Positions 7,527 to 10,331 of a DNA stretch of 47,428 nt are shown here, piece by piece. Numbering within the stretch: the first letter of the stretch is position 1; each line of letters begins with the position of its first letter. Below the pieces are notes generated by a model, which worked only from the letters and a program-made list of their open reading frames with translations, ran no database searches and was not told where the DNA came from. Origin of the DNA: Phycisphaeraceae bacterium (GTDB taxonomy: Bacteria; Planctomycetota; Phycisphaerae; Phycisphaerales; Zrk34); NCBI GenBank assembly GCA_028282685.1, contig JANQHK010000072.1, positions 1 through 47,428 on the forward strand, written 5' to 3'. The position numbers were made by a program, and so were the translations under genes.

Positions 7527-8843
7527 TTGCGGACCATCGCCATCATCAACCAGAAGGGGGGATGCGGCAAGACGACCACGGCGATCAATCTTGCCGCGGC
7601 CTTTGCGCGCGCCGGCCAGGAGACGCTGCTGGTCGACATGGACCCGCAAAGCCACTGCGCCCTGGGGCTGGCGGTGCCCGAAAAACAGATCGGCGGACAC
7701 ATCGGCGATGCGCTGCTGGCCGATCGTCACCGGCCGTTCAACACCGCCCCGATCACCTGGCAGGTCGCCAGCGGGCTGGACCTGATTCCCTCCACCGTGG
7801 CGCTGGCCGCCGTGGAGCGTCAACTGGCCAACGAGCCGGACAAGGATCTGCGCCTCGCCTCGGTGCTGCACCGGCTGCGCGACGATTACCGCTTCTGCCT
7901 GATCGATTGCCCTCCTTCCATCGGTCTGCTGACGTTTAACGCGCTGCGCGCCGCGGGGGAAGTGATCATTCCCGTGGAGACCGGCTACTTCGCGCTGAAA
8001 GGCGCGGTCAAGCAGGCGGCCACGCTCGACGCCATGGGCAAGCGCATCGGGCACAAACCCACGTTGCACGTCCTGGCGACGATGTACGACGTGCGCACCC
8101 GACAGGCGCGCGAAATCCTGGCCGACCTGCATCGCCAGTTCGGCAAGCGCGTGCTGCCGGCGCCGATCCACTACAGCGTCAAGATCAAGGAGGCGACGGG
8201 CTTCGGCCAGCCGATCCTGGAGTACGATGCGACCAGCCGCGGGGCCGACGATTTCGAGCAACTGGCCGCGCACCTGCTGGCCCACGCCCCGGCGTCAAAC
8301 GATCCGTTGCCCGAGGTCATCCTGCCCGAAGAATCGGCCCAGGCGGAAATCGACGGCTCCATATCGACCGGCGCATCGCCCATGGCCGACCGCGCTGCGG
8401 AACTGGTCCGCCGGGCCCGCGCGCTACAGCAGAAAACCGACCAGATGCGACGCCGACTCGAGGCCGATCCCGATGTCGCCGGCGCGCAGGGCCTGCGCGA
8501 CATGGCGGACGGCCCGACGCGCGGCGAATCCCGCAATCATCTCTCCGATCGCCTGGCGCATCTGTACGGCGTGCGTCAGACCGAACAGGGCGCCCTGTTC
8601 TGCCAGCCGCAAAACCACGCACATGAAATCCGGATCGCCGGCGATTTCAACAACTGGCAGCCGACCCGCGCCCCCATGCGCCGCAATGAAAAACTGGACG
8701 TGTGGGAATTGTGCCTGCCCCTGCCGCCCGGTCGGTACCGGTATCGACTGGTGGTCGACGGGCGATGGACCAGCGACCCGCACAACCGCAACGTCGAGAT
8801 CAATCCGTACGGCGAATTGAACAGCATCGTGGAAATGGCTTGA
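7527..8843 (+). CDS. ParA-family ATPase fused to a CBM48/AMPK-beta-like glycogen-binding domain
   Basis: A 438-residue protein. Residues 1-250 are a canonical ParA/Soj ATPase: KGGCGKTT deviant Walker A (10-17), LLVDMDPQSH, and LIDCPPSIGLLTFNAL. The middle (about 285-355) is charged and helix- or coiled-coil-forming (AELVRRARALQQKTDQMRRR). The C-terminal 73 residues have the E-set/CBM48 signature (IRIAGDFNNWQPT then WELCLPLPPGRYRYRLVVDG), the fold of AMPK-beta and branching-enzyme N-domains that bind glycogen-like glucans. The TTG at 7527 is chosen because GAGG lies 6 nt upstream and the ParA homology begins there. The frame is open to 6240, but that extension is antisense to the beta-propeller gene. 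No ParB is adjacent. The fusion suggests ATP-dependent positioning of a glucan-associated cargo, which is inference. Confidence 0.9.
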   Translation: MRTIAIINQKGGCGKTTTAINLAAAFARAGQETLLVDMDPQSHCALGLAVPEKQIGGHIGDALLADRHRPFNTAPITWQVASGLDLIPSTVALAAVERQLANEPDKDLRLASVLHRLRDDYRFCLIDCPPSIGLLTFNALRAAGEVIIPVETGYFALKGAVKQAATLDAMGKRIGHKPTLHVLATMYDVRTRQAREILADLHRQFGKRVLPAPIHYSVKIKEATGFGQPILEYDATSRGADDFEQLAAHLLAHAPASNDPLPEVILPEESAQAEIDGSISTGASPMADRAAELVRRARALQQKTDQMRRRLEADPDVAGAQGLRDMADGPTRGESRNHLSDRLAHLYGVRQTEQGALFCQPQNHAHEIRIAGDFNNWQPTRAPMRRNEKLDVWELCLPLPPGRYRYRLVVDGRWTSDPHNRNVEINPYGELNSIVEMA

Positions 8844-8939: not shown

Positions 8940-10331
8940 GTGAGCATGGAACGAGAAACCACCAACTTCGAAGACCGCACGGAAGCCGCGATCGAAGCGC
9001 TGGTGGACATGTATCTGTCGCGCCCGGTTCAGGAGCAAAGCCCCGAGGCAACCGCATCGGAAAGTAAACCCGCTTCGGAACCCGAAGCGCAACCGGTCGA
9101 AATCGAAACGGCGCCGATCGAAACGCCGATCCGGGCCATGGCGCCGTCGCACACCGAGACGGTGCTGATCGGCCATCTGCCCGGCCTGGCCAACCCCTGG
9201 CTCAGCCAATACGCCGCCAGCCGCGTCCGACCCGATCGGCCGGTGGCGATTTGTCACCTGTTCGCAGAGCAGGTGGAAATCGAACTGGTCCACGGTGAGC
9301 CGGCCGCTCCGTTGGTCTCGCCCGGCGCCGATCCGGCGCTGGATACGGCCCTGGATGGACTGGCCGATCGCGTGGGGCTGTGGCTGGTGCGCGTGGGTGC
9401 GGCGGATACGACGATCGCGCGGTCGGCCTGCGCGGCCATCGGCACGTGGACGCTGTTGAGCGGCGCCGATGAGGCGGCGGTCGTGGCGGCGTATCGACTG
9501 ATCAAGCAGGCGCGCCTTCCACTGGACGAAATCGACCCGGCACAACGCCGCGTGCAACTGATGCTCGCCGGCTGCCGAGAGGAGCAGGCCGATCTCGCCG
9601 CCGATAAGATCGCCCAGGCCGTGCAGAACTTCCTGCATCTTCCGGCCGAGTGGATCGGCACCCGCCCGCGCATGCAGCCGATCAACAAGCAGCGGTTTGG
9701 AATCTATCGCAATCCGCCCCGCACCCATGCCGAACCCGCCTGGGCCGCGCTGCTCCGCTTCCTGACCGAGCGGTTGCCCGAGCCGACCGAAGCCCCCGAA
9801 CCGCCGATGCCTCGGGCCGCCGATTCTCCGCCGCCGCTGCGCCTGCACACCGATGAACCGGATGAACTTGGCGAGGACGAACCGATCACGACAACACATG
9901 AAGAGCCCGCAGCCGAGGAACCAACCCAGCCGACCGCGCAACGTCCGTCATCGCTGACAGCATATGTTGAGGATTTGCAGTTGCTGGCGGTGCGTTGTCC
10001 GCTCAATGAAAACGTGGAGCTGGCCATCGATTCCGGCGGCGCGCTGCATGCGATGCACCGCGCCGATGGCATTCACGTGCATCAGGGCATGGCCGCCTTG
10101 TTCGGCGTCCGTGCGTGGATCGATCAGCACGCTGCGCTGCTGCATCGGGCCTGCGAAGGCCGGCCGATGAACACCGCCTCCGTCACGCTGCATCTTTTCA
10201 CCGACACGCCCCGTCCGGTCATCGCGTTCTGCCTGGCCGGAGGCCCGGCGCACCCGGCCATCAAACTCCACCTGCTGCAAACGGTCCGCCTCGGCGACGA
10301 CGACAAGCCCGTGCACACCGAACTCAATTAG
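8940..10331 (+). CDS. conserved hypothetical protein, possibly a P-loop-less MinD/FlhG-like protein
   Basis: The product (463 aa) is not confidently recognised. Residues 1-60 and about 280-340 are acidic, Pro/Glu/Ala-rich linkers. Between them, the segment VGLWLVRVGAADTTIARSAC through TWTLLSGADEAAVVAAYRLI and the following helices (ending in FLHLPAEWIG) resemble the second half of MinD/FlhG ATPases: a hydrophobic strand, a D/E-V motif, AYRLIK-like helix, and a final strand with L-G/P-W. No Walker A motif is present anywhere, so it would not hydrolyse ATP. The C-terminal 120 residues form another globular unit with His-rich strands. The start is GTG 8940 (ATG 8946 is the alternative). Its place beside a ParA-like gene suggests a pseudo-ATPase partner; this is inference. 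Confidence 0.6.
   Translation: MSMERETTNFEDRTEAAIEALVDMYLSRPVQEQSPEATASESKPASEPEAQPVEIETAPIETPIRAMAPSHTETVLIGHLPGLANPWLSQYAASRVRPDRPVAICHLFAEQVEIELVHGEPAAPLVSPGADPALDTALDGLADRVGLWLVRVGAADTTIARSACAAIGTWTLLSGADEAAVVAAYRLIKQARLPLDEIDPAQRRVQLMLAGCREEQADLAADKIAQAVQNFLHLPAEWIGTRPRMQPINKQRFGIYRNPPRTHAEPAWAALLRFLTERLPEPTEAPEPPMPRAADSPPPLRLHTDEPDELGEDEPITTTHEEPAAEEPTQPTAQRPSSLTAYVEDLQLLAVRCPLNENVELAIDSGGALHAMHRADGIHVHQGMAALFGVRAWIDQHAALLHRACEGRPMNTASVTLHLFTDTPRPVIAFCLAGGPAHPAIKLHLLQTVRLGDDDKPVHTELN

Follow-up and report, generated by a model that had tools for sequence, protein, structure and literature searches.

In the window, as we call the whole stretch of 47,428 nucleotides that was analysed, the reading frame at positions 7527-8843 of the forward strand encodes a Soj-type ParA ATPase fused to a carbohydrate-binding module of the AMPK-beta type (CBM48), and the analysis confirmed that this fusion is real. 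The fusion and its key residues are conserved across most of the class, and it is usually followed by a second conserved gene (8940-10331), not picked up in the preliminary description of this DNA, whose product is a putative pseudo-ATPase. A ParA joined to a predicted glucan-binding domain, usually beside such a partner, makes a candidate system for positioning stored glucan or for responding to glucan. ParA/MinD ATPases are the bacterial counterpart of motor-driven transport, and the fusion is a variant within this known group of positioning ATPases. The preliminary description did not know of an earlier account of it; likewise, we know of no report of a ParA-CBM48 fusion, and a search of the open-access literature returned nothing relevant on ParA together with glycogen or CBM48.

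The frame runs uninterrupted through 438 codons, and its TTG start aligns exactly with the ATG, GTG or TTG starts of the homologues. Residues 1-252 of the product, P0001 (7527-8282, + strand), form the ATPase domain, as judged from Pfam, AlphaFold, Foldseek and column conservation. The AAA_31 profile matches residues 2-173 (E 8e-43, above the curated cut-off), and the deviant Walker A motif NQKGGCGKTTT is intact. Across 105 homologues K10, K15, D37 and D39 are invariant, and the wider set K10, G11, G12, K15, T16, D37, D39, D127 and P129 is invariant or nearly so, which accounts for the Walker A, A' and B motifs, in agreement with the canonical ParA with intact deviant Walker A that had been proposed. 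The best Foldseek matches of the domain are chromosomal ParA/Soj proteins (38% identity), which rank above MinD; membership of the MinD group was rejected, considering also that the protein ends in the CBM and has no C-terminal amphipathic membrane-targeting helix. Two DNA-binding arginine positions have been described for B. subtilis Soj and C. crescentus ParA (PMC7229837). When these positions were assigned by motif using Soj alignments, both were found to be occupied, by R190 (conserved in 89 of the 105 homologues) and K219 (K or R in 97 of 105). The fusion protein may dimerise in an ATP-dependent manner and bind the nucleoid.

The ATPase domain is followed by a linker (residues 253-347; 8283-8567, + strand), delimited by AlphaFold and column conservation, whose conservation over the 105 aligned homologues is 0.245, against 0.716 for the ParA domain and 0.667 for the CBM. 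In the AlphaFold model, built from 67 aligned homologues, residues ~255-285 are of low confidence and presumably disordered (pLDDT <50 at 270-284), and one or more helices are predicted at 286-327 with moderate confidence only. The coiled-coil linker of the preliminary description is thus only partly right. Column conservation also reveals a short conserved helix, DRAAELVRRARAL (residues 288-300; 8388-8426, + strand), in which A290 and L293 are nearly invariant. A motif of this RAAEL or RxAELxxRMR type stands at the tail of most relatives that have no CBM.

The C-terminal domain (residues 348-438; 8568-8840, + strand, stop codon at 8841-8843) was assigned to the AMPK-beta type of CBM48 from Pfam, alignment to 1z0n, AlphaFold and conservation. 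Two Pfam profiles exceeded their cut-offs, AMPK1_CBM at residues 364-437 (E 5.4e-12, 46.2 bits against 26.8) and CBM_48 at residues 355-428 (E 2.7e-10, 40.9 bits against 22.4); the best PDB sequence match was the AMPK beta-1 CBM (1z0n, E 1e-9), and residues 348-437 were modelled as an E-set-like beta-sandwich with a pLDDT of ~96. Domain search and structure prediction therefore both recover the glycogen-binding type of domain and the E-set fold suggested earlier, and the aromatic glucan-binding residues expected of it are present across the homologues: W377 (8655-8657) and W414 (8766-8768), which align with the glucan-stacking W100 and W133 of AMPK in the 1z0n alignment, are invariant in 105 of 105. 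N375, Y406, R407, D417 and N420 are invariant as well, and N432 is kept in 98. The AMPK beta CBM is the closest solved relative of the module; equivalents of W100, W133 and N150 are conserved, but K126 is replaced by Arg and there is no kinase context. The Arabidopsis PROTEIN TARGETING TO STARCH (PTST) likewise ends in a CBM48, preceded by a helical region and bearing the same two Trp, and plant PTST no longer binds starch when this pair is mutated (PMC4339375). PTST brings another protein to glucan (PMC4339375), but it has no ATPase and works in plastids, whereas the CBM described here is joined to ParA. Residues and model together support the prediction that the CBM of P0001 binds alpha-glucan.

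All 61 genomes examined within the order carry a relative of the ParA; the CBM is intact in 44 of them (split across contigs in one), decayed in 9 and missing from 8. The fusion was found in 80 further loci of planctomycete or uncultured bacteria, other orders of Phycisphaerae among them. When 392 genomes sampled from the whole phylum were compared, matches that reached the CBM came from within the order and from parts of the class; outside the class, the matches listed were confined to the ParA part, spanning about residues 1-260 and reaching about 350 at most, and inside the class no fusion was seen in family f8 in this sample. The nine decayed CBMs have all lost W414 and all kept Y406 and D417, with R407 kept in all but one, the pattern to be expected if W414 serves the ligand and the others serve the fold. 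In one genome, G013, both Trp have been lost from the ParA-borne CBM; a separate frame of 203 residues (locus L225:2536-3145, + strand) in G013 contains a close relative of this CBM, with both Trp intact.

The downstream gene, delimited by homologue search, encodes P0002 (8940-10331, + strand), a protein of 463 residues if read from the GTG at 8940, the ATG at 8946 being the likelier start. Homologues are present in 59 of the 61 genomes of the order, and by their coordinates 57 lie directly downstream of parA-CBM on the same strand; in G048 and G054 the partner is several kb away. An N-terminal helical motif (8976-9020, + strand; consensus RTxxALDxLADLFLTG), seen in column conservation and in the AlphaFold model, where helix 5-26 precedes a disordered stretch (pLDDT <50 at 28-65), is retained in the lineages without a CBM. 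The middle domain (9150-9773, + strand) is FlhG/FleN/MinD-like: it matches the FlhG 4rz2 profile (E 2e-4), and 4rz2 is also its best Foldseek match (E 1.8e-5). Although this fold is shared with FlhG/FleN (4rz2, 5j1j), P0002 has no Walker A, showing GNLPGxxxPW without a lysine at the P-loop position (columns 78-87), and has in addition the N-terminal motif and a C-terminal alpha/beta domain (residues 339-463; 9954-10328, + strand) that is modelled with pLDDT mostly >90 and gave no family match in Pfam or NCBIfam. Profile and model point to a FlhG/MinD-like pseudo-ATPase, which appears to be undescribed. The partner was ruled out as a ParB, with no ParB or Pfam match, and it has no relatives in viral contigs; a phage origin was rejected.

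CBM and partner are separable, as either has been lost without the other in different lineages. Every CBM-less genome except G003 keeps the partner, and most Sedimentisphaerales-type loci have a strictly conserved CBM with no partner found downstream in a stop-to-stop frame scan, the exceptions being loci L111, L114, L115 and L223. A search for the partner in the whole genomes of 20 class members gave a clear match in G115 and the Tepidisphaera genome only; the remaining genomes had either no match or hits the size of FlhG. In G003 (locus L168, contig C37) the CBM is gone, no partner was found and the ParA frame stops just past the linker helix motif.

Which alpha-glucan genes a genome carries does not correspond neatly to the presence of the fusion. 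Within the order, canonical glgA exceeded the cut-off in 1 of 61 genomes and GH13 glgB in 8, and matches to GT35 phosphorylase, GH57 and GH77 were obtained in 57, 59 and 31 genomes, respectively. The window's genome encodes a GH57 branching-enzyme-type protein with BE_C (NF041133, E 1e-131, under the model's cut-off) and an alpha-glucan phosphorylase (TIGR02094, 874.7 bits against a cut-off of 191.7), and neither a GlgA over the cut-off nor a GH13 branching enzyme or a GH77 was found in it. Over the tips of the tree, intact CBM and long phosphorylase are associated (33/44 against 2/17, Fisher p 1.7e-5), but parsimony on the ParA tree requires no more than about 4 changes in the CBM, and the long phosphorylase is kept in both G003, where the CBM is lost, and G013, where it is degraded. 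Given so few independent events and these two exception lineages, we did not accept phosphorylase content as the explanation of CBM state. G035, 99% complete and with an intact CBM, yielded no glgA over the cut-off and no GH13 branching enzyme, phosphorylase or GH57 branching-enzyme-type frame, and the CBM is lost or decayed in G003, G013, G015, G027, G038 and G050 though alpha-glucan enzymes remain. The preliminary description had read the fusion as a sign that glycogen granules or a glucan-bound machine are positioned along the nucleoid; its domain assignment and glucan-binding prediction are supported, whereas glycogen granules as nucleoid cargo are a further step of interpretation, to be weighed against this uneven gene content, the lack of a glycogen gene among the conserved neighbours and the several lineages that do without the CBM but keep ParA and partner. 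The window's genome (G000), which lacks canonical glgA and glgB, also encodes a pair of small CBM48/AMPK1_CBM proteins that stand alone, of 104 and 130 aa, on contigs C33 and C23 (L207:4125-4439, - strand, and L208:865-1257, + strand).

The anatomy of P0001 fits an ATPase able to sit on DNA and to hold alpha-glucan, and glycogen positioning by it is plausible. Our first choice, which we hold tentatively, is a positioning ATPase of the ParA type that binds alpha-glucan through its own C-terminus, the glucan being the cargo. In its favour we count the conserved residues of the ATPase and of the DNA-binding positions, the invariant Trp pair, the selective loss of W414 from decayed CBMs, and the GH57 branching-enzyme-type protein, phosphorylase and small CBM48 proteins of the window's genome. 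In this scheme, whose nucleoid binding, glucan binding, protein-protein contact and glucan cargo we infer, the ATP-bound dimer would have its ParA part probably on the nucleoid and its two CBMs holding on to a particle of glucan or to an enzyme complex coated with it; through ATP turnover this particle would be spread out over the nucleoid and divided between the daughter cells. In Phycisphaerales, at the Tepidisphaera locus and in some deeper lineages, the second gene would add the FlhG-like pseudo-ATPase, which probably docks on ParA via its own N-terminal helix or via the conserved linker helix of ParA, and which would from there control the ATPase cycle or add a second target. That these parts, a nucleoid-bound ParA with its own CBM48 and a pseudo-FlhG regulator, would amount to a dedicated system for placing and passing on storage glucan in most of Phycisphaerae we regard as somewhat unlikely. 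With a class-wide fusion whose predicted glucan site is intact, in a host group of unusual cell biology, how bacteria place and share out a carbon store would become directly testable, and the pseudo-ATPase partner offers a second entry point to the system.

In known ParA systems the cargo-binding part resides on the partner and not on the ATPase, which counts against glucan as cargo. So do the rarity of canonical glgA in the order, the scarcity of alpha-glucan genes in G035, the CBM losses in genomes that retain alpha-glucan enzymes and the lack of a glycogen gene among the conserved neighbours. ParA/MinD ATPases position many cargos (PMC10241942), and McdAB of carboxysomes and other systems of this kind resemble the present one in the ParA-type ATPase, the linked partner gene and the proposed positioning role, but here it is the ATPase itself that carries the predicted target-binding domain, and the partner is a putative pseudo-ATPase. 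The literature searched contains no carbohydrate cargo for these ATPases, and the survey cited makes no mention of glycogen. Glucan could instead be a signal. AMPK, which carries a similar sugar-polymer-binding domain, is an energy sensor in humans, and a CBM of the same type as that of AMPK beta might sense alpha-glucan or maltodextrin and alter the ATPase cycle or oligomeric state of ParA, in which case segregation, growth or the positioning of another cargo, via the pseudo-FlhG partner, would follow the carbon store. The ATPase core and partner outlast CBM loss, as would be expected if the CBM were an add-on input and not a cargo grip, and the fusion is retained where little or no glycogen machinery was detected; nevertheless, no allosteric path is visible and a flexible linker of ~95 residues separates ATPase and CBM. 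We consider a signalling role unlikely, if still a serious contender. Less probable is that ParA and pseudo-FlhG form a core positioning a non-glucan target, such as envelope, division or motility machinery, with the CBM as an auxiliary anchor. The near-universal presence of the partner in the order, its fold nearest to FlhG/FleN and the survival of the pair in CBM-less lineages speak for such a core, but most Sedimentisphaerales-type loci keep a strictly conserved CBM with no partner nearby, a search of such genomes found none in most of them, and the window's genome already has its own FlhF and true FlhG, encoded separately and side by side.

A role as the chromosome-partition ParA of the class, served by a ParB encoded elsewhere, is improbable. 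The ATPase domain resembles Soj/ParA of chromosomal ParABS (8ray, 1wcv/2bej), its closest folds, at 38% identity, with the deviant Walker A and the DNA-contacting basic positions, but P0001 adds a C-terminal CBM48 and the linked gene encodes a predicted pseudo-FlhG and not a ParB. To our knowledge a glucan-binding tail has no role in ParABS, which also counts against it. In the window no ParB adjoins the fusion, as had been remarked before, and the next gene has no ParB match; parB beside parA, an arrangement expected of ParABS, is thus absent from the locus. ParB exceeded the cut-off in 19 of 21 relatives, and in the window's own genome the sole match seen was weak and partial (E 5e-11). In four relatives' loci (L227-L230) ParB has an N-terminus of the ParA-binding type, (K)LGRGLSSL, and stands apart from any ParA, so the fusion could still be served by a ParB in trans; however, at least one other ParA is present in the genomes searched and could serve ParB. 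The least probable of the readings, and a very doubtful one, is that the C-terminal E-set domain binds protein instead of glucan: E-set domains often serve protein contacts, and alpha-glucan gene content follows the domain poorly, but the invariant stacking Trp pair, the nearly constant N432 and the selective loss of W414 from decaying copies argue against it.

Around the fusion, the upstream neighbours, named by eye from sequence, include Maf-like, AroB-like or lipoyl-domain proteins. There is no glycogen gene among the conserved neighbours, and a glycogen operon was rejected because these genes are unrelated and vary from order to order. A plasmid origin was discarded, plasmid records covering at most 56% of the protein and exclusively its ParA part, as was a defence system, for which PADLOC gave no convincing match. 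Two further ParA-type proteins were observed in G000. The ParA on contig C134 (L198:1232-2140) is of more canonical type; the gene after it, in the same orientation, encodes a large membrane protein, and no ParB adjoins it. Contig C120 (L199; 6-1838, + strand) encodes a ParA-type ATPase of 610 aa whose P-loop is the variant NEKGGTAKTT and whose long C-terminal extension matches no Pfam family.
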